64,000 nucleotides of DNA, from NCBI GenBank assembly GCA_014305025.1, contig JACRTY010000001.1, forward strand, positions 1-64,000. The letters are read 5' to 3'. Shown here piece by piece: positions 33,922-47,945 of this stretch. The position numbers and the translations under genes are program-made. Position 1 is the stretch's first letter. Each line of letters opens with the position of its first letter. This DNA comes from Candidatus Nyctobacter psychrophilus. Lineage in GTDB: Bacteria; Vulcanimicrobiota; Vulcanimicrobiia; Vulcanimicrobiales; Vulcanimicrobiaceae. The notes beneath the pieces were generated by a model that ran no database searches, was not told where the DNA came from, and saw only the letters and a program-made list of their open reading frames with translations.

Positions 33922-35424
33922 GTGGGCGTGAGCGATCGGAACGTCGCCCTTCTCGGCATCGACCTCGGGACGAGTTCCGCCAAAGTGCTGGCCTGCGACC
34001 AAAGCGGCGTGCTGCTCGCGGCCGCGGTTCATCCCTATCCGTTGCGCGTGCCGAGGCCGGGCTTCGTCGAACTCGATCCGGGCGAGGTGATGCTCGGCGC
34101 CGACGCCGCGCTGCGCGACGTGCTCGCTGCTCTCCGCGAGCGGCGCATCGCCGTCGCAGCGCTCGGACTGTCGGGCGCGATGCACGGCATCGTCCCCGTC
34201 GACGCGCGGGGCGCGCCCCTGGGGCCGTGCCTCACCTGGCTCGACCGCCGTAGTGCGGACGTCGCGGCGGCCTGGCAACGCGACGGAACGGCGGCACGGC
34301 TCTACGCGGCGACGGGCGCCCCCATCCATCCGATGCTGCCGTCGTGTAAATTGCGCTGGCTTGCCCAGAACGATCCCGCACTCGTCGCTCGCGCGGCGAA
34401 GTTCGTGTCGCTCAAAGAATTGCTCGCGTTCCGGCTTACCGGCGAGTGGGCGATCGATTGGGGGATGGCGTCGGGGACGGGACTCTTCGGCGCGTACGAG
34501 CGCGGATGGCATGCGGCGGCGCTCGACCTCGCCGGCGTCAGCGCGGAACGATTGTCGCAGCCGGCTGCGCCGTCGACCCGGTTGCGCCTGCGTGATGCCG
34601 TCGCCCGTGACCTCGCGCTCGTACCGAACGTGCCGCTGGTGCTCGCGTCCAGTGACGGCGCGCTTGCGAACTTGGGCGTCGGGGCGGTCGGCGTCGACGA
34701 CTTCGCGCTAACCCTCGGTACGAGCGGCGCACTGCGCGTCGTGGTCGACGAACCCGTGCTCGACCGGGCTGGACGTACGTTTTGTTATGCGTACGACGAC
34801 CGATGCTACATCGTCGGCGGAGCCACGAGTTCGGCCGGCGCGGTGCTCGCACGGTTCGAGGAGTGGCTGCTGGGGGATACGGCGCCGGCCGACAGACCGG
34901 CGCGGGCCGTTGCGCTGGCCGCTGCGGCGCCGCTCGGCGCGCGGGGCTTAACGCTCGCACCGTTCCTGTCGGGTGAACGTGCGCCGTATTGGCGGGTCGA
35001 TCTGCACGGGACGCTGGCCGGCCTCGACCTCGCGCACGAACGGGGTGACCTGCTGCGTGCCGCGTTCGAAAGCATCGTCTTCGCGGTGCGGAGCGTCTAC
35101 GACGTGCTGCTCGAACGGCTGCCGGCGCCGCGGCGTTTACGGCTTTCCGGGGGTCTGGTTCGGCCACCGTTCGTACGACAACTGATCGCCGATGTCTTCG
35201 ACTGCGAAACGGTCTTCACCGAACACGCCGACGCATCGGCGTTCGGCGCTGCGCTCATGGCGGGTGTTGCCGTCGGCTTGGTGGCGGATGCCGCGGATAT
35301 CGCTACCTCGCCGTCCGCGCTCGCTTTGGAGGCGCGGAACGTTGCCGAGCGGATCCACGTCGAACAGTATGCCGCGGCCTTCGACCGCTATCGGCGGGTC
35401 GTGGCCGCCACGCTGCAACTATGA
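33922..35424 (+). CDS. FGGY-family carbohydrate kinase (gluconokinase/xylulokinase-like)
   Basis: 500 residues with the two actin-like domains of FGGY kinases, which phosphorylate sugars with ATP. GIDLGTSSAKVLACDQSG is phosphate 1, LTWLDRRSADVAAAW and GAPIHPMLPSCKLRWL are substrate-domain blocks, and TLGTSGALRVVVDEP, PFLSGERAPYW and RLRLSGGLVRPPFVRQLIADVF close domain II. The PIHPM..KLRWL pattern is closest to the gluconokinase branch, so gluconate is the best guess, with xylulose possible. GTG 33922 or 33928 could start translation. It stands alone, ending 6 bp into the convergent S46 peptidase gene. Confidence 0.85.
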   Translation: MGVSDRNVALLGIDLGTSSAKVLACDQSGVLLAAAVHPYPLRVPRPGFVELDPGEVMLGADAALRDVLAALRERRIAVAALGLSGAMHGIVPVDARGAPLGPCLTWLDRRSADVAAAWQRDGTAARLYAATGAPIHPMLPSCKLRWLAQNDPALVARAAKFVSLKELLAFRLTGEWAIDWGMASGTGLFGAYERGWHAAALDLAGVSAERLSQPAAPSTRLRLRDAVARDLALVPNVPLVLASSDGALANLGVGAVGVDDFALTLGTSGALRVVVDEPVLDRAGRTFCYAYDDRCYIVGGATSSAGAVLARFEEWLLGDTAPADRPARAVALAAAAPLGARGLTLAPFLSGERAPYWRVDLHGTLAGLDLAHERGDLLRAAFESIVFAVRSVYDVLLERLPAPRRLRLSGGLVRPPFVRQLIADVFDCETVFTEHADASAFGAALMAGVAVGLVADAADIATSPSALALEARNVAERIHVEQYAAAFDRYRRVVAATLQL

Positions 35425-37488
35425 ATGCCGCGCCGCTTCGATCTCCGAGACGATGCGGTCGGCATGATAGACCTTCGAGAGCCCTTCGAGCAACGCGCGG
35501 CTGTCGACGGAGACGGCGCGATTGCGCGTGCCATCGTACCCGAAGTCGCCGCCGAGCGAGTAGATGTTGCCGTCGAAGATGAGGCCGACGATATCGCCGT
35601 TCTTGTCGATCAGCGGACTGCCCGAATTACCGCCGATGATGTCGTTGGTGGTGACGAGGTTCATCGGCGTCGCCAGGTTGAGCGACGGTTTCGCGGCGAG
35701 CCAGCTTTCCGGCAATGCGTACGGGAATGCGCCCGTGGCCCGCTCGTAGAGGCCGGCGATTGTCGTGTAGGGCGCGACCGGCGTGCCGTTCGCGTCGAAG
35801 CCTTTCACGGCGCCGTAACTCAGGCGCAAGGTGAAGGTCGCGTCGGGATCGACGCTGGTTCCGTAGATGGCGAAGCGCGCTTTGGCGATGCGTTCGGCGG
35901 CCGCGCGTGATGGGGCGGTGATGCGCGCTTCGTAATCCTTGCGGATCGCGCGGATATCGGGGTCGAGCGACCGCGCATAGACGATCATCGGATCGTCGGA
36001 GGCGGTGATCGCCGCCTGTCCCCCGGTGAAGAGCGCCTTGCGCACGGCCGGATCGGCAAGTTTGGTGCCCGAGACCAAGCGATGGGCGAGATCGTCAGGC
36101 GCTTCGGTGCCGAGCATCTTCTTGACGAGCGAGTCATCCGTGCCGAGGACTTCGCGCGTTTTCGTGAACGCAAAGCCCAAGGTCGTCTCTTCCAGATCGG
36201 GATACACGGGGATCGGCGCGGTCAGTTGCTGCTCGAGCCCGATCAGCGCCTGATCGGTGTATTCGGGAAGACGTTGCGCATTGGGCTTCGTGCGCTCCTC
36301 CGCCGACTCGACGAGCGTGAGCGCGTCGCCAAGCAGGCCGCTCTCGAAGGTGAAGCCGGTGACGGCATTATAACGGGGGGCGAGTTGCTGACGTAATGTT
36401 TGCAGTCGCGCGATCTGGTCCCACGCCGAACCGTCCGCTCTCTGCAACCGCGCATCGGCAGCGACGGCGGCGCGCAGTTTGCGTTCCTGCGCAGCCTTCT
36501 GCGCCATGAAGGCGGGATCGTTGAGCGCGCGCTGCCGGCCAAGCAATGCCTTGAAGTCATTTTCGACGTAGAAGCGTATCTCGTGCGCTTCGCGCAGTTG
36601 CTCCGGTCCGCGCTTCTCGAACTCTTCGAGAATGCCGCGGTATTCCGCGAGCGCCGGCAGCTGTTCGGGATACGTGACGTCGCGGGTGTACTCGAGCTGG
36701 GCCATCGTCAGCTCGCGCGACGTGCTGCCGGGATTGCCAGCCACAAACACGAGTTCGCCCGCTTTGGAACCGTTCGCGCTCCACCGCAAGTAGTCGGGCG
36801 TGGCGGCGGGCTTGCCGTTTTCGTACGCGCGCACGACGCCGATGTCGAAATCGTAGCGCGGAAAATTGAAGTTGTCCGGATCGCCGCCGAACTGCGCGAC
36901 GTTGTATTGGGGGGCAAACACGAGCCGCACGTCGGTGTAGCGCTTATAGCGATACAGATCGTAGATGCCGCCGTGGTACAGCGAGACGACGTCGCAGCGC
37001 AGCGTCTTGTCGGTGCCGCAGGTGGCCTGCTGAATCTGCGCTTCGGCGGCGTTCTGCGCTTTGTTGGCGGCGTCACCGGTCTTGCCGGCGGTCGCGCCCT
37101 GAACTTTCGCCGTGACGTCGCTGATCTGGGTCAGTTGATCGAGTTCGAAATCGGGGCAGGCCCGTTCGTCCTCGGCCGTTTTGGCGTAGAAACCACTTTG
37201 GACGAAGTCGTGCTGCGCGGTCGACAGTTGCCCGACGCATCCGACCACGCAGTGGTGATTCGTCATCACCAAGCCGCTCGGGGAAATGAAGGATGCCGAG
37301 CATCCTCCTGCATCGCGAACCGCCGCCTTCCGCACGTGATCCAGAAACGCCGCCGACGGCCGGAAGCCGTACGCCGCTTGGACTTTGGCGGACGGAAAGT
37401 TGTTGAAGGTCCACATGCCTTCGTCGGCCAGGGCCGCCGCCGAAAGCGTGAAGAACGACACGAAGAGGAGCGCGCAGAAGCGAAGCAT
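35419..37488 (-). CDS. Exported S46-family dipeptidyl peptidase (DPP7/DPP11 type)
   Basis: 689 residues, close to the ~700 of S46 enzymes, which remove dipeptides from peptide N-termini in the periplasm. The signal peptide MLRFCALLFVSFFTLSAAAL is followed by EGMWTFNNFP. The chymotrypsin-like triad is visible: His79 in MTNHHC, Asp in NFPRYDFDIGVVR (213 or 215), and Ser in IIGGNSGSPL near the C-terminus. FVAGNPGSTSRELT and GLIFDGNIYSLGGDFGYD are diagnostic. Gly in FDGN suggests DPP7-like hydrophobic P1 preference rather than the acidic preference of DPP11, but this is inference. It ends the peptide-acquisition gene run. Confidence 0.93.
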   Translation of the reverse strand: MLRFCALLFVSFFTLSAAALADEGMWTFNNFPSAKVQAAYGFRPSAAFLDHVRKAAVRDAGGCSASFISPSGLVMTNHHCVVGCVGQLSTAQHDFVQSGFYAKTAEDERACPDFELDQLTQISDVTAKVQGATAGKTGDAANKAQNAAEAQIQQATCGTDKTLRCDVVSLYHGGIYDLYRYKRYTDVRLVFAPQYNVAQFGGDPDNFNFPRYDFDIGVVRAYENGKPAATPDYLRWSANGSKAGELVFVAGNPGSTSRELTMAQLEYTRDVTYPEQLPALAEYRGILEEFEKRGPEQLREAHEIRFYVENDFKALLGRQRALNDPAFMAQKAAQERKLRAAVAADARLQRADGSAWDQIARLQTLRQQLAPRYNAVTGFTFESGLLGDALTLVESAEERTKPNAQRLPEYTDQALIGLEQQLTAPIPVYPDLEETTLGFAFTKTREVLGTDDSLVKKMLGTEAPDDLAHRLVSGTKLADPAVRKALFTGGQAAITASDDPMIVYARSLDPDIRAIRKDYEARITAPSRAAAERIAKARFAIYGTSVDPDATFTLRLSYGAVKGFDANGTPVAPYTTIAGLYERATGAFPYALPESWLAAKPSLNLATPMNLVTTNDIIGGNSGSPLIDKNGDIVGLIFDGNIYSLGGDFGYDGTRNRAVSVDSRALLEGLSKVYHADRIVSEIEAARHS

Positions 37489-37521
37489 ACGGACCCGTTC
37501 TACGGCAGTTCCCTAAAAACT

Positions 37522-37695
37522 ATGTTTCGGGCGTTGACGATGGACGACGACCGCGACCATACCGGCGAGCATACGAGCGAGGAGCCGGGCGATCCCGGCG
37601 TCATCGGCTCCACGGTCGAGCCCGAGGACGTTCCGCTCGACGACCCCGACGGCGAGCGAAAGCGCCCGACGGGCCGTTACCGCGAACCAAGCTAG
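37522..37695 (+). CDS. Small acidic hydrophilic protein (hypothetical)
   Basis: 57 residues from ATG 37522, or 51 from ATG 37540 (MDDDRDHTGEHTSEEPGD). The sequence is rich in Asp, Glu, Pro and Gly with a basic end (GERKRPTGRYREPS), and is probably disordered. It starts 34 bp from the divergent S46 peptidase and ends 33 bp before the convergent lipoprotein gene. No family is recognised. The composition differs from the Arg-rich shadows typical of this DNA, which supports a real gene. Confidence 0.45.
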   Translation: MFRALTMDDDRDHTGEHTSEEPGDPGVIGSTVEPEDVPLDDPDGERKRPTGRYREPS

Positions 37696-37727
37696 CGAGT
37701 GATGGGCCCGGATATTCTCCGGTAGTT

Positions 37728-39359
37728 TCAGAAGACCCAGTCTTGCGCGTTCCATGTCGGCGTGACCGGGTTGGGGGCGAAGCCGCGCAAACGCGGATTA
37801 TACGCCTCGACGTCCTTGGGCCAGTACACGAACGCGAGCGGGACGTCGCCGGCAAGCAGTTGTTGACTCACGGCGTAGGCCCGCTTACGGGCTGCACGGT
37901 CGTAGTGGGTAAGGCCGGCGGTCAGCGCCGCGTCCATCGCCGCGTTGCAATAGCGCGAATAGTTCTGCCCGTTCGGCGGAATGGCGCCACAAGTGAAGCG
38001 TCCCGAGCTGTCGGGATCGATTCCCAAGGTCATCGTGTACCAGGCCAGATCGAAGTTGCCGCTCTGATAGATACCGCCAGCCGATAGGCCGGCGAACATC
38101 ATCGCGCCGTTGTAACCCTTGACGTCCGCATCGATGCCGACCGCTCGTAACTCCGCTTGAATTTCGACCGCGATCAAGCGATACGTCACATTGTTCTGCG
38201 CGTACGCGAACTCGAGCCGCAGCGGGCGGCCGTTCTTGGCGACGAAACCGCTCTTGCCGGGAACCCAACCGGCTTCCCGCAACAGCGCCCGCGCGCGGGC
38301 CGGATCGTGCGGGGTGACCTGCAGCCGCGGATCGTACGCCCACATGAACCGGGGGATGTCTTCGGTTGCGACGGTCCCTGCTCCGAAGGTAAAGCGCCGT
38401 ACGATGCCCGGTTTGTCGAGTGCATAATCGATCGCGCGCCGCACGCGGACGTCACGTAGGACGGGTCGGGTCGTGTTGATCAGTACGTTGGCCGCGCCGT
38501 GGGTGTCGACCAACGCATACTTGATGCCGGGCAGCGAGCGAATCTGCCCGAACGCGTTGACCGACGCCTGTGTGAAGAGGTCGAGTTCGTGCGTGCGCAA
38601 TTGATTGAGCATCGTCGCTTCGTCGGGAATGAACCGCACGCTGATGCGGCGCACGTGCGGCTTGCCGAGATAATAGGCGTCGTTGGCGGCGAGCTCGATC
38701 GACGTGCCACGATCCCAGTGGACGACCTTGAAGGGGCCGGTGCCGACCGGCATCTGGTTGAACGCGACGTGGTTGAGATCGGGATAGCGCGCCAACAGAT
38801 GGCGCGGCAGAATGGCGTTGGGAACCTCGTCACCGAACAGACTGGCCGTTGCGGGCGCATAGCGTTGCTTCATGCGAAATACGGCGGTGTATGGGTCGGG
38901 CGTCCTCACGTCGGCGATCAGATCGTAACCGTGGCGGTTCGGCACGTTGTTGGCCGGGTTCATCATCGCGTCGTAGGAGAACTTGACGTCGGCGCTGGTA
39001 AACGGCGCTCCGTCTTGCCATTTCACGTTGCGGCGGAGGTGGTACGTGATCGTCAGGCCGTCGCCGCTGATGCCGCCATTCTGCTGCGTCGGCACCACCG
39101 CCGCAAGCCGGGGGATCAAGGTGCGCCCGTCGGCGCCGGTCGTCACGAGCACGTCGAAGACGAGGCGGTCGACGAGCTGCTCGTAGTCGTTGAGCGCGAA
39201 CAGCGGCGAGAGCGAGTTGGGTTCGGTCGTCATCCCGATGCGCAAGGTGCGGCCCGGCGGTGACTGCGATGACTGCATGGTCTCCCCGCACCCACACAGG
39301 AGGACGATCAGCGCCAACATCAGCGCTCCTAGGGCCGTCCGGCGGCGGATGCGGTGCAA
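37728..39359 (-). CDS. Oligopeptide-type ABC transporter substrate-binding lipoprotein (SBP family 5)
   Basis: 543 residues. The N-terminus has a lipobox, LLCGCGE, so Cys23 would be lipidated. LRIGMTTEPNSLSPLF, VFDVLVTTGADGRTLIPRLA, YHLRRNVKWQDGAPFTSADVKFSYDAM and MPVGTGPFKVV are family 5 signatures (DppA/OppA/NikA). These bind peptides, nickel complexes or sugars in the periplasm. No ABC permease or ATPase gene is nearby, so it must use a remote permease. It starts 14 bp after the S51 peptidase stop, and that context favours peptides as ligand. Confidence 0.93.
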   Translation of the reverse strand: MHRIRRRTALGALMLALIVLLCGCGETMQSSQSPPGRTLRIGMTTEPNSLSPLFALNDYEQLVDRLVFDVLVTTGADGRTLIPRLAAVVPTQQNGGISGDGLTITYHLRRNVKWQDGAPFTSADVKFSYDAMMNPANNVPNRHGYDLIADVRTPDPYTAVFRMKQRYAPATASLFGDEVPNAILPRHLLARYPDLNHVAFNQMPVGTGPFKVVHWDRGTSIELAANDAYYLGKPHVRRISVRFIPDEATMLNQLRTHELDLFTQASVNAFGQIRSLPGIKYALVDTHGAANVLINTTRPVLRDVRVRRAIDYALDKPGIVRRFTFGAGTVATEDIPRFMWAYDPRLQVTPHDPARARALLREAGWVPGKSGFVAKNGRPLRLEFAYAQNNVTYRLIAVEIQAELRAVGIDADVKGYNGAMMFAGLSAGGIYQSGNFDLAWYTMTLGIDPDSSGRFTCGAIPPNGQNYSRYCNAAMDAALTAGLTHYDRAARKRAYAVSQQLLAGDVPLAFVYWPKDVEAYNPRLRGFAPNPVTPTWNAQDWVF

Positions 39360-39373
39360 CGCCGAACGCCGTC

Positions 39374-40438
39374 CTACAACGAGTACGGGTCGGGACGATA
39401 GAACGGCGGCCGCGCGCCGTCGACCTGCACGCGCGTCCAGGCGACACCCGGACGTTTGTGCAGCAGATCGAACCGTTCGCCGTCACGGCCGATGTGCGCG
39501 ACGTCGACGGTCGTGCGCAGCGGCTGCCCACGCTGTATCGCCACCGGGCCGTCGAGACGCACGAGGTAGGCGCCGCGGCTGTTCGGCTTCGTACGCACCG
39601 TCGCCATCCCAGCGGAATCGACCAGCACGACGCTGCCTTCGTCGACGCCGAGACCGTAATACGGCGTGGGCCCGAGTTTGTCGTCGACGATGCGCGCGAG
39701 AAACGCGACCAGCCGTCCGAAACGATTGCGCACGACGAAGTGCGTGTCCGTGATCGTGTCGGCCAGCGCCGGCCACGCGAACAGGCTCGTGAAGCTGATC
39801 TCCGGTTCCAACGGATCGTGCAGCGCGTTCTGCGTCGTCACCGCGTAGTCGTCATCGCCGGGATGCAGCCGGTCGGCGGCGACCGAATCGTAGTCGAGCG
39901 CCCCTTGGATCGCCAGCCCTGCGCTGCCGCCGCCGACGAAGCCGCCGCGCGCATAAACGGCTTGCACGGCGCGGATCAACGCGCTGCCTTTCCAGCGTGC
40001 GTAGTTGGCCTGATCGCCGCCGGCGAACAGCACCGCATCGGCGCCGTTGACGTAGGGGACCAGCGCGTCGACCGCTGCGGCATCGGTGCACGGCGGAATC
40101 AAGATTTCTTGCACCGACGCGAAAGTAGCGTCCCGATAGAGGCCGTCCTCGTCCTCACGGCCGCCGGAGGCGCTGAGCACGACGACGTTACCGGCGCGCC
40201 CGCTGAGGCCCCCCAGATGATTGCGCAGCCATTGCATCGCCGAAACCGGCACGTTGAGCAGTCCGGCCCCGGACAGCAGGAGCCCGGGACCCCGCCGGAC
40301 GCTGCGCGCATCGCGCGTTCCCAACATCGGAAAGACGGTCGTCGTGCACGCGGTCGGCGACGGCGCGGGGCCCGGTGACGGGCTCGCCGCGCCGACCAAT
40401 GCGACGGCGAGCACGCCGGCGAACAGCGTCAGCTTCAG
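39374..40438 (-). CDS. Exported S51-family (cyanophycinase-like) peptidase, apparent CTG start
   Basis: About 354 residues. The fold is the class I glutamine-amidotransferase-like type of S51 peptidases (cyanophycinase, peptidase E). DAVLFAGGDQANYARWKGS is the oxyanion/GGDQ block, and FVGGGSAGLAIQGAL supplies the nucleophile serine in GGSAG. YYGLGVDEGSVVLVDSAG is a later conserved block. The family cleaves cyanophycin or aspartyl peptides. The first canonical start (GTG 40414) would cut the signal peptide. A CTG at 40438 overlapping the barrel-gene stop as CTGA gives (M)KLTLFAGVLAVALVGAAS, a complete signal peptide, and is preferred. Confidence 0.82.
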   Translation of the reverse strand: MKLTLFAGVLAVALVGAASPSPGPAPSPTACTTTVFPMLGTRDARSVRRGPGLLLSGAGLLNVPVSAMQWLRNHLGGLSGRAGNVVVLSASGGREDEDGLYRDATFASVQEILIPPCTDAAAVDALVPYVNGADAVLFAGGDQANYARWKGSALIRAVQAVYARGGFVGGGSAGLAIQGALDYDSVAADRLHPGDDDYAVTTQNALHDPLEPEISFTSLFAWPALADTITDTHFVVRNRFGRLVAFLARIVDDKLGPTPYYGLGVDEGSVVLVDSAGMATVRTKPNSRGAYLVRLDGPVAIQRGQPLRTTVDVAHIGRDGERFDLLHKRPGVAWTRVQVDGARPPFYRPDPYSL

Positions 40439-43400
40439 ATGCGAACCTGCAGCTGGAAGTAGACGTTGAGCGGCATCGGGTAGTTGAAGGCGCTGAGGTC
40501 TCCGTAGCTCGGCGTGAACGGGTGCGCGAAGTACGGATTGAGCGGCACGCCGTTTGCCGCAACGTCGTGCGCTGAAGCGCCGTTATAGAAATTGTTGACG
40601 TAGAAGATATTCGCGCCGTATCCGCAGATGGAGGAACTTGGGGGATAGGCTGCCGACCACGGGGTGCTCGAGCCCCCGAAACAGCGGTTAACGAGGTTCG
40701 CAACCGTCACGTTCGCCGTCACTTTCGGAGTGATGTCGTAGGCCAGTTGCAGGCCCATGTTGAGCTGCCAGGGCTGACGGAACTCGCCAAAGCCATCGAA
40801 GTGACCTGTCTCGGGATTAGGAACGTAGAGGCTGCCCGACGGCGTCGCCGCGAACGCACATGACGTGTAGTCTGCATTGAGCGGGTTCCCGGTCGTGAAG
40901 CCTGACGTCCCCTGATTCTGCGAACACGTGCGCGGATCGAGGCCGCCAACGTCTGCCGGGTTGCCGTATGTCGTCCCTTGATTCAGCGAGAGTTCCGGCG
41001 TGATCGCGAACTTGCCGCTGCGGTAGTTGAGGACGGTCGTGAACACGTTGGGTGAGAGGTACGGGAAGTCGAGCCCCGTCTCGTAGTAAGCGTTCTTATC
41101 CAGAAGCGGTTGCGGGGTGCTGGCGTAGTAGGGATTGCGGATCGACATCGCCATGCAAGCGGGATCAGGCTTCCCATCCGCAGAGTTCATATAGCACGGC
41201 GAGCCACCGCCGGCTTTGGTCAACGCGTTGTACTGCTGGATGTACTGATTGTAGGGATCGACCGGGTTTTGATTCGTTCCGGCATAGTTCAACCAGCGCT
41301 CTTTGGAACTCGTGTAGGTGTAGGAGAACAGCGCCGAAAGACCGTTCTTCTTGAAATCGCCCTTCAAGAGTTCGAATTCGACGCCCGCCGTGCGCTCGAT
41401 TCCCGAGTTGAACGAAGGACTCTGGCCATAGACGGTCGCGTTGTACAGCTGATTGGTCGCGTAACGGTAGTATGGCGTCGCCTTAAATGAGAGGTCCGTG
41501 CCGGGAAACTGGTGCTCGATCGAGACGTCGAAGTTGTTCGAGTATTCCGGCAGCGCATCATGGCGCGGAGTCGTGAATCCGTAGGGCAGGAACCCAATCA
41601 ATTGGTTCGCCAGGTTCTCTTCTTGACTATCGTATTGGATCTCGTACGCCCTTGGCTGTTGCGCGTAGCGCCCGGCGGAGGCTCGCAGGACGGTGTTCGG
41701 ATCGACGTTGTACGTCAGCCCGGCTTGCGGCAGGAAGTACGATTGCACGAGCTTCGGATTGTACACGTTTGAAAGCAGCAGGTGCCCATCTTTGCCGTCG
41801 GGGTGGAACGTCTGCACGGGCGTTCCCGTCGAATTGTCCAGCGGACAGTTGAACGTAACGTACGGCGTCTGCACGCTCGCGTTTTGCGGCGCTTGCGGCA
41901 CAAAGACCGGTTGCAACGTCACCGGGTTATAGCAGTACTCGTTCTGAGCCGCGGCGTACCAGAAGTTCTTTCCCGGTGTGTTCGTATTGCCGAGATCGAA
42001 CTCGTCCCGCTCGCCGCGTAGGCCGAGTTTGATGTCGAGCTTGTCGTTGGGGCGCCATTCGTCGCTCAGTGAGATGGCACCGAACTTAGGACGCACGCGA
42101 TTGATCCCGGCCTGATTGCCCGTGTAGGTCAAACGCCACGCCGCGCCGGCGGCGCACGCGGGCGTGGGGATCGTCGTTCCCGCTCCGCAACCTTGCGTTT
42201 CCGACTGGGTCGGGTCGTAGAACGAGCCTTGAGTGATCGAATCGTTGCACGGTGCCGGCTGGCCCGCCGTATAGGCGTCGACGCCGTCATCCCCGGTGCC
42301 GTCCGCTGCCGCGAAGCATTGCGTCCCGTTGGTAAGATTGCTGACCGAAAAACGTTTGGTGTTGCGGTAGTTGAAATTGTTGTCGCGAAGCGTCGTCGCC
42401 GTGACGTAGTCCGCCGAGCCCGTCAATTGATGGTGATCGCTCAATTGATCGGCAAACTGCAACTCCAGTCCCCGCGTGTGTGAATCAACTTCATAGTCGT
42501 AGTTCGTTGCGCCGAAACCACTGCCGATTCCACGCCGGGACGCACCGCTACGGTTGGTGTTCGAGTAGAACGTGTACCCGAACAGCCGCACATATGCATT
42601 GCTGCCGATATTCTTTTGGTATTGCAGCTTGACGATGCTGGCGGAGTCCCACCGTGCATCACGATAGTCGGGCGGCAACGCGGAGTAGCCCGTCTGGCAC
42701 GATCCCGCGGTATAGATATCCGTGTAATCGCCCGTGTTGTAACAGCGTCCGCCCGGCGATCCGGGGAACGGATACGCAATCGGCTGCACGGTCGCGGGCG
42801 CAAGGAACTGCGTCCCCGTGGGGTACGTGACGTAGTCCGGCCACTCGCCATAGCCGACCGCGTTCTGCACGAGCGAAAAACCGGCATCGTTGACGCCGCT
42901 GTAGTACTGACGATACTGCGCCGAATTCGTGTACAGCAGTTGGATGTCGTCGCTACCGCTATCGTTATGGTGCGGGATCGCAAGGTGAAAATTGCCAACG
43001 ACTTCCCGACCGTCGACCGCGTCGACGTAGCTGTACACGGGATTGAAGGACGCGAAGCAGCCAGGATCATTGGCGAACGGCGGTGGCGTCACGCCGCTGG
43101 CATCAAATGGGCTGGTGAGATCCGCGTTGCACGTCGGATAGACCGCCGGATAGAAGTCGAGATTGGTCGTATGGTTCGACGGCCCGACCGGGTTGGGGAA
43201 ATTGGCGATCTGTCCGGCGCCGTTGAAGTTGTCGAGGTAGCGGAACTGCTGGTTGTAGCTGCTCGCGCCGACATAATAGGTGAAGCGGCGATTGGTCGTC
43301 GCACCGCCTGCCTCTGCCGAGAAATCGTGGTAGAACGTCGGGCTCCCCAGACGGGCCGAGAAGTCGGCGAAGCCGGGCGATGAGCCGCTCTTGACGACCT

Positions 43401-44127
43401 GATTAATAAAGCCCGCGAGTCCCGACGCGCTCGCACCCGCGCCGCCGCCACCGGTGTAGATCTGCAGTTCTTGTTGACCCAACGTTGCCGCCGAGTGACC
43501 GGGATAGTTATCGAATGAACGGTTTACGGGCACGCCGTCGTACTCGTAGCCGATTTGATCGTAATAGCCGCCGCGGATGTACACGGACTGATTGACGCCC
43601 ATCTGTCCCGGCGGAACGAACGCACCCGGCACGGCCGCTATTGCAGAATACGCGTTGTTGAGCGAACCGCCGCCGCCGATCGGAGCAGCGGCGCTGGTTA
43701 CGGCACTGTTAACGGAATAAACATCGGTCGTCGTACCCGGGCGCACGACGTCGAGCGCAGAGCGCGCGGCAACGCGCGCGATCTGCCGCAATGACCGGTC
43801 CAGCGAGAAGTCCAGCGAGCGCTGCTGGTCGGCCTGAATCGTGATGCCGGGGACCTGCAATTGCTCGAAGCCCTGCTTCGTCACACCGAGTTGATACGTA
43901 TCAGGTGCCAACGAAATAAACGTGAAGTGCCCGCTCGAATCAGTGGTCGTGTTCGCGGTCTGTGAAGGACTCGTTACGCTCACCACGGCGCCTACAACAG
44001 GCGCACGGGTCTTGGTCTCAAGAATCCGCCCTCCTAGCGACCCCGTCGTTCCGGCAGACGCCACATGGAAGGCGATGAAGACACCACCGAACGCGAAAAG
44101 AACGATGAAAACAACCGCACGCAGCAT
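40435..44127 (-). CDS. TonB-dependent-receptor-like outer-membrane protein with carboxypeptidase-regulatory domain
   Basis: 1230 residues. A signal peptide (to about HVASAG) is followed by a carboxypeptidase-regulatory-like beta-sandwich (GGRILETKTRAPVVGAVVSV to about 110). A plug-like domain has SVYIRGGYYDQIGYEYDGVPVNRSFDNYPG, then a long beta-barrel rich in Tyr and Asn ending in VYFQLQVRI. Such Oar-like proteins import large ligands or fragments across the outer membrane using TonB. No TonB box is obvious. Strong SD AGGAGG lies 5 bases before the ATG. The 3' end overlaps the S51 peptidase gene. The ligand may be a peptide, judging from the neighbours. Confidence 0.88.
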   Translation of the reverse strand: MLRAVVFIVLFAFGGVFIAFHVASAGTTGSLGGRILETKTRAPVVGAVVSVTSPSQTANTTTDSSGHFTFISLAPDTYQLGVTKQGFEQLQVPGITIQADQQRSLDFSLDRSLRQIARVAARSALDVVRPGTTTDVYSVNSAVTSAAAPIGGGGSLNNAYSAIAAVPGAFVPPGQMGVNQSVYIRGGYYDQIGYEYDGVPVNRSFDNYPGHSAATLGQQELQIYTGGGGAGASASGLAGFINQVVKSGSSPGFADFSARLGSPTFYHDFSAEAGGATTNRRFTYYVGASSYNQQFRYLDNFNGAGQIANFPNPVGPSNHTTNLDFYPAVYPTCNADLTSPFDASGVTPPPFANDPGCFASFNPVYSYVDAVDGREVVGNFHLAIPHHNDSGSDDIQLLYTNSAQYRQYYSGVNDAGFSLVQNAVGYGEWPDYVTYPTGTQFLAPATVQPIAYPFPGSPGGRCYNTGDYTDIYTAGSCQTGYSALPPDYRDARWDSASIVKLQYQKNIGSNAYVRLFGYTFYSNTNRSGASRRGIGSGFGATNYDYEVDSHTRGLELQFADQLSDHHQLTGSADYVTATTLRDNNFNYRNTKRFSVSNLTNGTQCFAAADGTGDDGVDAYTAGQPAPCNDSITQGSFYDPTQSETQGCGAGTTIPTPACAAGAAWRLTYTGNQAGINRVRPKFGAISLSDEWRPNDKLDIKLGLRGERDEFDLGNTNTPGKNFWYAAAQNEYCYNPVTLQPVFVPQAPQNASVQTPYVTFNCPLDNSTGTPVQTFHPDGKDGHLLLSNVYNPKLVQSYFLPQAGLTYNVDPNTVLRASAGRYAQQPRAYEIQYDSQEENLANQLIGFLPYGFTTPRHDALPEYSNNFDVSIEHQFPGTDLSFKATPYYRYATNQLYNATVYGQSPSFNSGIERTAGVEFELLKGDFKKNGLSALFSYTYTSSKERWLNYAGTNQNPVDPYNQYIQQYNALTKAGGGSPCYMNSADGKPDPACMAMSIRNPYYASTPQPLLDKNAYYETGLDFPYLSPNVFTTVLNYRSGKFAITPELSLNQGTTYGNPADVGGLDPRTCSQNQGTSGFTTGNPLNADYTSCAFAATPSGSLYVPNPETGHFDGFGEFRQPWQLNMGLQLAYDITPKVTANVTVANLVNRCFGGSSTPWSAAYPPSSSICGYGANIFYVNNFYNGASAHDVAANGVPLNPYFAHPFTPSYGDLSAFNYPMPLNVYFQLQVRI

Positions 44128-44229
44128 GCCGGCCTCCTTGGATCATCTTAAGCGTATCGGTCTGTTGCGACTATCCCGGGATTCCGCCATGCCGCCCCAG
44201 CCGTCGCCATCTCGCTGCCTCTAGGACGA

Positions 44230-46992
44230 TCAGACGCCGAGCTCCGTCGCCGCGTCGCCGGCGGTTTCTCTGGCGCCCACGATGTAGGCGCTGAGCTGCG
44301 CGCGCGACCGCAGACCCAGCCGCGAAAAGATGTTGGAGACGTGGTGCTCGACCGTATTTTCGCTGATATGCAGGCGCAGCGCGATCTCGCGATTGGTGGC
44401 GCCGAGCGCGATGAGTTCGGCGATCTGATGCTGACGTTCGGAAATGATCCGGGCGGGGGACGGCGCTCTCTCGGTGGCCCAACCGCCCGCAGCGCGAAGG
44501 TCCACAGGACTGCCCATGCCGACGCGCAGCGTTGCCGCCTCCCCCGCGTGGCCGGCAAGCTCGAGGGCGTACGTCTGATACAACGTCCAGCCGAGCAAAC
44601 CGTACTGACGCGCCGCCAGCGCCCCCAGCCGTTTATGCTCGCTCGGCAGGCGTTCACGGCCGGCCGCCGCCGCGAGCAGCAGCGTGTGACCACGGCGCAC
44701 CCGCGGCCGGCCCGACGAAACGGCCAGCAGCGTCTGCGCGAGGGCGATATGCTCGCCCGAGCCGTATCGCGCGACGGTGACGAGCAGGCTGCAGCCGCGG
44801 TGCAGCCGCGTGACGCCGCGTAACGCGTGTTCCAACAGCGAGCACGCTTCGTCGCGAGCGCCTTGCACGAACCGCAGTTCGGCGAAGGCCGCGCTGACCG
44901 CCGCGATGCGCTGCAACTCGCCCGAGCGCCAGGCGGCTTCCAGCGCACGCTCGTCGGCGCACGCTTCCAACATCGGCTTGTCGTTGAGCAGCAGCGCGAG
45001 CGGTATCCCGACGCTGGCTGCTTTGGTTTTGAAGGTGGCGGTGTCGACGCCGGTTTCGAGCGCCGTTCGGACCTGTCCACGCGCCGCCTGCAAGTCGCCG
45101 CCCAGCATCAGCGTGCGGGCGAAGTTCAGACTGCAATACGCGACGCGCCAGGCCATCGCGGTTCGCTGAGCTTCATGCAGCGCGCGCTCGTGATGGCGGA
45201 TCGCTAGGCCCAGTTCGCCGAGATCGTAGGCGACGAGGGCGTGATTGTTTTCGGTTTGCGCGATCAGTTCCGCGTCGCCTAGCTGACCGGCTAAGGTCGT
45301 CGCGCGAGCGCAGTCATCGAGCGCCTCCGCTGCTTCTCCCCATGCGGCATTGATGTCGCCGCGAACCTCATGATAGTCTGCCCGCGCAGCAGCAGAAAAG
45401 GTTCGCTGCAAACGGCCCGCTCGCCGCAAGTCCGCGGTCGCGCCGCGCGCATCGCCGAGCGTGATCGCGAAGCGCGCCTGCGCGAGCAACGCTTCCCCCA
45501 AACCGCATCTGTCACCGTGGCGCTCGAAGGCCTGGGCCGCTTCGCGTGCGACCTGTAAGCTCCGCGCCGTATCCGCGTCGACCCAGCACTGATCGGCCAA
45601 CAGCAATGACGCGCGCGCCGCCGCGAGCCCGTCGCCGAGGGCCGCGTGCTCGTCGCGGCATTGCGTGAAGCGCGTCCGCGCCGCATCGCCGCAGCCCTCG
45701 ATGTACAAAAGGCGTCCCAGGCCTTCATAGAGTCGCGCGCGTTCGGCGCCGGGCGGATATTGCCAGTGCAATGCTTCGCCGTAAAACCGGATGGCGTCGC
45801 GAAACGCGTGGACCTCCGCCGCGGCTTGCGCCGCGCGCTCATAGTGGACGCGCGCGCGGTCGGCGACGCGTGCCGCCGCCCAATGGTAGGCCAGCTCGGC
45901 CGGCGACGCGGCACCCTCGGGCGATGCTTCGAGCGCCGTCGCGATGCGCACGTGCAGCGGCGCAGCGAGCGCGAAGACCAGCCGCTCGGCCAGCGCGTGA
46001 CGGATCAGCGCGTGACGAAAGCCGTATGCTTCGGGCGTGGCTTCAACGAGGACCAGCAACCCGGCGCGCACGGCACGCTGCGTCGCCGCAGTGACCTCGG
46101 CGAGGGAACGTTCGACGACGGTCGCGAGCAAGGCGAGCGAAAACGTCCGGCCGAGATTGGCGGCGCGAATGAGGAGTTCGCGGTCGTCGGCGTCAATCGA
46201 CGACAACCGCTCGGCGAGAATTGCCTGGACGGAAACCGGCACGTCGCTGCTGACGTGCAGCCCGCCGCCGTCGAGCGCTGCGCCGAGCAGCTCCTCGGCG
46301 AAGAGCGGGTTGCCCTCGGCATACTCTTCGATCTGCGCCAACGTCTCGTGCGGCGCAAACGCGTCGCGGGCAGCCAACATCTGCTGCAGCAGTTGCCGCA
46401 TCTCATTACGTGCCAGTCCCCGCAGGGCGACTGTCGACGCGCGGGCACGCGACGCAACGCTGCGCAGCCCGGCCAAACGCGCATCGGTCGACGGTTCCCC
46501 TGAGCGGAACGTCATGACGAAGAGAATCGGCGCCGCGTGGAGGTGCCGCACGAGGTGCGAAGTCAACTCAATCGTGCCCGCGTCGGCCCATTGCAGGTCC
46601 TCGATGATGCACAAGAGCGGCCGGCGCGTCGATTCCCGTCCCAGCGTCGCCGCGATGCTTTCGAAGAACGCATACTTGGCTTCGCCGGCGCGCTCGCCGT
46701 CCGACCAGCGCGCCGATGCGCGCAGCCGACGGTCGAACGCGCGGAGCAGCGCTCCGAACGGAAGGTACGGAAAGTCCACCCGCTCCTCGCACGCGCCGAT
46801 GGCCGTGGTCACGTCGCCGCGCGCGCGCGACTGCAATTCGGCGATCAGCCGCGACTTGCCGATTCCGGCCTCGCCTTCAACGGTGACGAAGCGCAACCGT
46901 CCCGCGCGCGCCGCGGCCAACTCGTCGAGCAGAAACGCCAACTCTTCCCGACGGCCGACGAACTTCTCGCTATACGCAGCGCGGAAGATCAT
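44230..46992 (-). CDS. LuxR-family transcriptional regulator with AAA/STAND ATPase and TPR-like region (MalT/LAL type)
   Basis: 920 residues. An N-terminal ATPase has FVGRREEL then Walker A GEAGIGKS (40-47), Walker B CIIEDLQWADA (about 135-145) and a sensor region (APILFVMTFRSGEPS). A central ~450-residue alpha-helical region resembles TPR repeats. The C-terminal LuxR helix-turn-helix is ISERQHQIAELIALGATNREIALRLHISENTVEHHVSNIF. LAL/MalT regulators oligomerise on binding an inducer and ATP to activate nearby promoters. It lies 102 bp upstream of the TonB-like receptor gene on the same strand and is its most likely regulator. Confidence 0.92.
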   Translation of the reverse strand: MIFRAAYSEKFVGRREELAFLLDELAAARAGRLRFVTVEGEAGIGKSRLIAELQSRARGDVTTAIGACEERVDFPYLPFGALLRAFDRRLRASARWSDGERAGEAKYAFFESIAATLGRESTRRPLLCIIEDLQWADAGTIELTSHLVRHLHAAPILFVMTFRSGEPSTDARLAGLRSVASRARASTVALRGLARNEMRQLLQQMLAARDAFAPHETLAQIEEYAEGNPLFAEELLGAALDGGGLHVSSDVPVSVQAILAERLSSIDADDRELLIRAANLGRTFSLALLATVVERSLAEVTAATQRAVRAGLLVLVEATPEAYGFRHALIRHALAERLVFALAAPLHVRIATALEASPEGAASPAELAYHWAAARVADRARVHYERAAQAAAEVHAFRDAIRFYGEALHWQYPPGAERARLYEGLGRLLYIEGCGDAARTRFTQCRDEHAALGDGLAAARASLLLADQCWVDADTARSLQVAREAAQAFERHGDRCGLGEALLAQARFAITLGDARGATADLRRAGRLQRTFSAAARADYHEVRGDINAAWGEAAEALDDCARATTLAGQLGDAELIAQTENNHALVAYDLGELGLAIRHHERALHEAQRTAMAWRVAYCSLNFARTLMLGGDLQAARGQVRTALETGVDTATFKTKAASVGIPLALLLNDKPMLEACADERALEAAWRSGELQRIAAVSAAFAELRFVQGARDEACSLLEHALRGVTRLHRGCSLLVTVARYGSGEHIALAQTLLAVSSGRPRVRRGHTLLLAAAAGRERLPSEHKRLGALAARQYGLLGWTLYQTYALELAGHAGEAATLRVGMGSPVDLRAAGGWATERAPSPARIISERQHQIAELIALGATNREIALRLHISENTVEHHVSNIFSRLGLRSRAQLSAYIVGARETAGDAATELGV

Positions 46993-47101: not shown

Positions 47102-47455
47102 TCACCAGCGATAGCCGTTAAGGACTATCATTTCGCCGGCGGTTCCGTCCTTATAGGTCGCGTCGACATTTGACAACGCCCGGACGATGTCCGATGCCTT
47201 CATGTCGGTAGGCTTATTGTCTTGATAAATGAGCAGCATGCCGGGATGCTCAGCATGCTCTTCGCCGAGGAACTTGAAGTCGACGTTGTTGTAGGTAACG
47301 ATGGCCCGTCGATGCTCGCAGGCAAACGCGAAGACGGCGGAGTCTGCAACTCCGCCGCCCAGCTCGTCGACTGAGCGCACCACATCATGGCCCGCCGCGA
47401 TCAGAGCATCCTTAACCGAACGGTCGCCGATGCATTCATCGAGCAGCAGCCGCAT
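47102..47455 (-). CDS. DUF5615 PIN-like protein (putative toxin)
   Basis: 117 residues. MRLLLDECIGDRSVKDALIAAGHDVV begins like DUF5615 proteins, whose PIN-like fold has an N-terminal acidic LLDE motif. ADSAVFAFACEHRRAIVTYNNVDF carries the second acidic/Asn site (usually TxDxDF; here TYNNVDF, so one acid is Asn). Members are probable RNases of toxin-antitoxin pairs. The start overlaps the upstream DUF433-like gene by 20 bp, as usual for such modules. The changed TNNVDF motif makes nuclease activity uncertain. Confidence 0.8.
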   Translation of the reverse strand: MRLLLDECIGDRSVKDALIAAGHDVVRSVDELGGGVADSAVFAFACEHRRAIVTYNNVDFKFLGEEHAEHPGMLLIYQDNKPTDMKASDIVRALSNVDATYKDGTAGEMIVLNGYRW

Positions 47456-47945
47456 GCATCAGGCCCTTAGCGGCACGTGCATCTTCGGCGTCCTCTGCCG
47501 CTATGAGCGTCCTGAACCGTTCACCGTACGAAATCGCTTCAAATGCCGCTTCGACCGGAAGTTCGAATTCGGCCGCTGCCTTTTGGGGGCTCCACCTCTC
47601 CGTGCGCATTCGGCCAAGGAACTGCCCTACGGTTAATCGGCGCCCTTTAAACGACAACTGCCGCCGCCATGGGTGCGGACGACGAACCAGAAACAAGTAA
47701 TTCATTTCCGGCCTCAGGGCACGAGTTAACTCAGGAACGGCGTCGGGATGCTCGTCTCCGGGCGGCACTACGGCCAGCTTGTGACCATCCCGGATTCGGT
47801 CGGAAAGATTCTCAACGATATCGAGGACGCGGCGCGTCGTTTCAGCGTCTCCTCCGGTTCCCATCCGCTCACCTAAAGCATGCAGAAAGCGCTGATGCTG
47901 CGGTGACAGCTCGATCTGGAGTCGCGAGCGTGAAGGCGCTGACAT
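47436..47945 (-). CDS. DUF433-like antitoxin with an extra N-terminal domain
   Basis: 169 residues. The C-terminal part, FKGRRLTVGQFLGRMRTERW then SPQKAAAEFELPVEAAFEAI and SYGER, resembles DUF433 antitoxins (winged or simple helix-turn-helix, normally ~75-residue proteins). The first ~90 residues are extra: LQIELSPQHQRFLHALGERM, a helical DAETTRRVLDIVENLSDRI segment and ELTRALRPEMNYLFLVRRP. This could be a DNA-binding or dimerisation module. It is followed by the DUF5615 gene with a 20-bp overlap. Probably it neutralises the toxin and represses the operon. Confidence 0.7.
   Translation of the reverse strand: MSAPSRSRLQIELSPQHQRFLHALGERMGTGGDAETTRRVLDIVENLSDRIRDGHKLAVVPPGDEHPDAVPELTRALRPEMNYLFLVRRPHPWRRQLSFKGRRLTVGQFLGRMRTERWSPQKAAAEFELPVEAAFEAISYGERFRTLIAAEDAEDARAAKGLMHAAAAR

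Follow-up and report, generated by a model that had tools for sequence, protein, structure and literature searches.

A cyanophycin utilization locus was described by Ben Hania et al. 2017 (cited in PMC10206079), and in Citromicrobium sp. JLT1363 the gene of a TonB-dependent barrel (TBDT) adjoins a cyanophycinase gene (PMC3400609). In Myxococcus xanthus, secretion of the protease PopC depends on an Oar TBDT (PMC6434023). Here we analysed a 64,000-nucleotide stretch of DNA (the window) on contig C8 of a Vulcanimicrobiota (Candidatus Eremiobacterota) MAG of 3.2 Mb and 58 contigs, in which an initial annotation had placed five genes on one strand, knowing of no named system with this combination. 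All five were found on the minus strand, near the positions given and with the families as named: a 920-aa ATPase-LuxR (LAL-type) regulator (REG, 44230-46992), an Oar-like TBDT (40435-44127), a CphE-like S51 peptidase with predicted export (39374-40414), a family-5 (SBP_bac_5) peptide-type binding lipoprotein assigned by its domain match (SBP, 37728-39359), and an S46 dipeptidyl peptidase of the DPP7/DAP BII type (35419-37488; Peptidase_S46, 708 bits), whose membership is doubtful.

The absence of a named system finds no support, as both cyanophycin utilization loci (PMC10206079) and a TBDT beside a cyanophycinase (PMC3400609) had already been described. Like the utilization locus, as far as PMC10206079 relays it, the window cluster combines a cyanophycinase-type gene with transport genes and lacks cyanophycin synthetase; it differs in having, in place of iadA or iaaA, a LAL regulator, an outer-membrane barrel and an orphan binding protein. 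With Citromicrobium it shares the barrel and cyanophycinase gene side by side, but it belongs to another phylum, and regulator, binding protein and operator are not described in the part of PMC3400609 that concerns this pair. It resembles Oar and PopC (PMC6434023) in the association of an Oar-type barrel with a protease; however, that barrel acts in secretion, whereas uptake is the putative direction for the window barrel. Our best reading is that the cluster represents a variant of the cyanophycin utilization locus, with different parts and its own switch.

The SBP starts 14 bp after S51, and S46 follows the SBP at 239 bp, with no predicted terminator between the two. The first standard start of S51 is a GTG at 40414, 20 bp past the TBDT stop, so that the overlap with the barrel reported earlier is absent with standard start codons and would need a rare CTG start. 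The promoter and terminator scan returned fewer sites than shuffled sequence. On the plus strand, a sugar kinase gene of the FGGY family (similar to gluconokinase or xylulokinase, 33922-35424) shares a few bases with the end of S46. Upstream of REG, a small gene overlaps that of a DUF5615 protein, the two occupying 47102-47945; pairs of this kind often resemble toxin-antitoxin modules.

The S51 peptidase

The S51 protein carries the full catalytic and substrate-binding set of CphE, the extracellular enzyme of Pseudomonas (PMC3235067): S164, H225 and E259 for Ser171, His224 and Glu251, and Q135, D223, T224, R229, R231 and R234 for Gln136, Asp222, Thr223, Arg228, Arg230 and Arg233. Both proteins have Thr where CphB has Gln173 (PMC3235067), and the N-terminus of the window protein, whose start codon is uncertain, is hydrophobic like that of CphE. 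Among 99 homologues, Q135, S164, H225, R231 and R234 are invariant, R229 varies once and D223 twice, and the position of T224 holds Thr or Ser in 96. E259 is kept in 72 of the 76 copies from outside the Eremiobacterota and in 17 of the 23 from within; in the other six (L021, L023, L026, L032, L033 and L034) the third triad residue is Gln or Ala, and some of these copies may be inactive or altered.

The predicted model (mean pLDDT 90.5) best matches 7uqw (Z 25.4 over 246 residues, 2.4 A), a cyanophycinase that carries a cyanophycin dimer as covalent ligand; PepE follows with a Z of about 17. The protein is only remotely similar to cyanophycinases of solved structure (14-19% identity when structurally aligned), and its activity is putative; against the NCBIfam cyanophycinase equivalog TIGR02069 it scores 44.1 bits (E 1.6e-11), far under the cut-off of 126.6. 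Furthermore, homology within S51 is not proof of a cyanophycin substrate, because the solved S51 structures include one titled 'pseudo-CphB', of which our literature search found no account.

Several homologues do sit in loci that resemble cyanophycin utilization loci as PMC10206079 uses the term. In two Holophagae-like records (L116 and L066), S51 is accompanied by an RpiR regulator, an Oar-like barrel, IadA (in L116 at 488 bits, cut-off 331) and a transporter of the OPT or YfcC-like type. The Pseudobacteriovorax copy (L132) has YfcC and IadA for neighbours, the Priestia copy (L127) IadA and a gene resembling YfcC.

Conserved linkage and a candidate operator

S51 homologues were found in 16 of 60 genomes, the host counted: in all 12 that carry a barrel of the window's TBDT clade and in 4 of the 48 others (Fisher p 1.3e-9; p 7.8e-7 within the family alone), values to be taken as guides, since related genomes are not independent. 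The REG, TBDT, S51 and SBP set recurs in three family members, with its order kept in G012 (REG-TBDT-S9-S51-SBP-PF06089) and G013 (REG-TBDT-S51-PF06089-SBP) and changed in G009 (PF06089-SBP-S51-REG-TBDT). G002 has TBDT-S9-S51-SBP, and the more distant G005 has PF06089-TBDT-S9-x-S51-SBP. TBDT and S51 are adjacent in the same direction in G025 and L061, convergent in G051 and G053, and separated by about 3 kb in G046. S9 peptidases, or a second asparaginase of family PF06089, are frequent in the relatives' loci. Conservation of the neighbourhood, which the initial annotation had proposed to check, thus extends to TBDT, S51 and REG, whose linkage is far above chance, and not to S46. An S51 protein identical to the G046 copy (on contig C129) occurs in L059 (JAJPHJ010000125.1, titled Proteobacteria), which is probably a mislabelled Eremiobacterota bin.

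The window barrel combines CarboxypepD_reg with a TonB barrel, as expected of the Oar type, with no separate Plug match at E 0.001. In the tree it falls within a 12-member clade (100/99), nine members of which are S51-linked; the remaining three are not S51-adjacent, yet their genomes carry S51 elsewhere. A sister clade lies next to genes for histidine degradation, with hutH in four genomes and also hutU in three (barrels at L043 7721-11470, L044 7785-11111, L045 5146-8958 and L046 6961-10884), which suggests an outer-membrane transporter for histidine, or for histidine peptides, that has gone unrecognised. In view of these hut loci and the three members away from S51, cyanophycin specificity of the barrels should not be assumed. 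Import through the window barrel is plausible.

REG has an N-terminal ATPase domain (AAA_16) and a C-terminal LuxR domain (GerE), and its length fits the figure of about 900 aa for LAL/MalT proteins. It had been called MalT-like, which is apt for a large ATP-binding LuxR protein and goes no further. TPR_MalT is not among its reported domain matches. Its best matches in the 60 genomes (46-49% identity) are those of G012, G013 and G009, all beside TBDT and S51, followed by one in G005 at 38%. In some class relatives, an ATPase or TPR protein bearing a guanylate-cyclase domain stands near the barrel or S51 genes instead of a LuxR-type regulator, in certain cases upstream of the TBDT (L040 5269-8046; L041 12086-14758; L028 1037-3808; L031 15458-18292).

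Between REG and TBDT, on the minus strand, lies the 16-mer GCGGAATCCCGGGATA (44172-44187), a candidate operator followed after 21 nt by the -10-like hexamer TAAGAT (44145-44150). The 16-mer is identical in G012, again between REG and TBDT, and its exact form occurs once in each of the two genomes, with two-mismatch copies elsewhere; G013 and G009 hold diverged forms at the same place. The distance from motif to -10-like hexamer is 20-21 nt in all four loci where REG precedes TBDT. In 20,000 shuffles the summed score was never attained, a figure that overstates the case because this spacing was picked after viewing the sequences. A site near -41 is the position expected for a LuxR-type activator. 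Conserved gene order and the shared operator-like site make it likely that, as first proposed, these genes are expressed together under the regulator.

Accessory genes and absent steps

The linkage of the SBP weighs less, since the host genome encodes some 15 such proteins. G008 and G014, both without S51, contain the nearest relatives of this SBP (67%), and the SBP_bac_5 proteins next to S51 in relatives belong to another subfamily, with about 35% identity to it. No other S51 locus contains S46; the genomes with S46 and those with S51 overlap only in the host, which is not above chance. S46 was accordingly rejected as a core part; it probably either joined this locus later or is just an adjacent gene. 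The dipeptide epimerase once suggested as a partner fares no better: its frame lies at the window's end, beyond ATP synthase genes, and no fetched locus has a homologue. Both should be dropped from the core unit.

The substrate had been put forward as cyanophycin-like or acidic peptides. The cyanophycin-like part stands as the best guess, given the CphE residues, the structure match and the cyanophycin-type loci of homologues. S46 does not fit the acidic peptides: in our alignment it has the motif FDGN as in DAP BII, with the Gly of DPP7/DAP BII at the P1-specificity position, where the Asp/Glu-specific DPP11 has Arg.

Cyanophycin synthetase (TIGR02068) gave nothing over cut-off in the 60 genomes, as for a scavenger, and IadA gave none over cut-off in the host genome. 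The single PF01112 gene of the host, on another contig among ribosomal-protein-like genes, was rejected as the missing IaaA; it is one unlinked copy that, in our judgement, reads like a glycosylasparaginase. The host PF06089 gene is likewise unlinked to the cluster, in a cysK-PF06089-metH arrangement, and the G002 copy was discounted for having the same arrangement; the second copies near S51 in G005, G009, G012 and G013 were kept as evidence. No ABC permease is present in the cluster, in agreement with the earlier reading, nor any other inner-membrane transporter, the linked transport parts being the outer-membrane barrel and the SBP. Opp/Dpp-type permeases are encoded on other contigs (C17 and C49).

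Function of the cluster and alternatives

We consider the barrel and cyanophycinase-like unit to be real, conserved and regulated, with a substrate that is likely but unproven. It seems reasonably probable that the cluster is a regulated operon which scavenges a nitrogen-rich, beta-aspartyl-linked polymer that other microbes leave outside the cell, with cyanophycin the likeliest candidate and a related compound the alternative. So how would such an operon work? On sensing a signal, REG would act at the palindromic site that precedes the TBDT and switch on its promoter. Polymer fragments would cross the outer membrane through the Oar-like barrel, and the exported, CphE-type S51 would cleave the backbone, giving beta-Asp dipeptides. 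The binding lipoprotein may deliver the dipeptides to a peptide ABC permease whose genes lie elsewhere. The enzyme that splits them would be cytoplasmic or periplasmic; in relatives it may be the S9 peptidase or the PF06089 protein of the locus.

The same barrel and peptidase could instead serve general uptake of other Asp-rich or isoaspartyl peptides, for example from damaged protein. The linked S9, PF06089 and S46 peptidases would suit mixed peptides, sister TBDTs stand in hut loci, and the triad Glu is missing from 6 of the 23 S51 copies; however, the CphE binding pocket is kept almost throughout the 99 homologues, and IadA, YfcC and OPT neighbourhoods recur elsewhere, which leaves general uptake a possible, clearly less probable account. 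We give little credence to a barrel that secretes S51 into the medium, its products entering by another route. Such a role has its precedent in Oar and PopC (PMC6434023), and known CphE enzymes do work extracellularly (PMC3235067), but several loci include a linked binding lipoprotein, which speaks for uptake, and no exported peptidase was identified beside the sister TBDTs in hut loci. A single fixed pathway of all five genes with S46 among them, the initial proposal, is equally improbable: the genes share a strand, and no terminator is predicted before S46, but the 239-bp gap precedes it, every other S51 locus lacks it, and the S46 and S51 genome sets have only the host in common.

Returning to the scavenging operon, a narrower form of it is one that we advance tentatively, as a dedicated TonB-dependent cyanophycin acquisition system of the Eremiobacterota, in which a new kind of enzyme, the linked S9 peptidase or PF06089 'asparaginase II', replaces IadA/IaaA in the last step, the hydrolysis of beta-aspartyl dipeptides, with a LAL regulator and its own operator. 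An S9 peptidase beside cyanophycinase genes has been named as a dipeptidase candidate (PMC10206079), and if the scavenging reading is true it would offer candidates for the isoaspartyl dipeptidases unfound in many cyanophycinase genomes (PMC10206079). It would also add to the evidence for an outer-membrane route of cyanophycin fragments, and provide a defined regulator-operator pair. Our literature search found no account of cyanophycin in Eremiobacterota. On the scavenging reading, cyanophycin would be a concrete substrate for cultivation tests, and a mostly uncultured soil phylum would be feeding on the nitrogen reserves of cyanobacteria and other bacteria.
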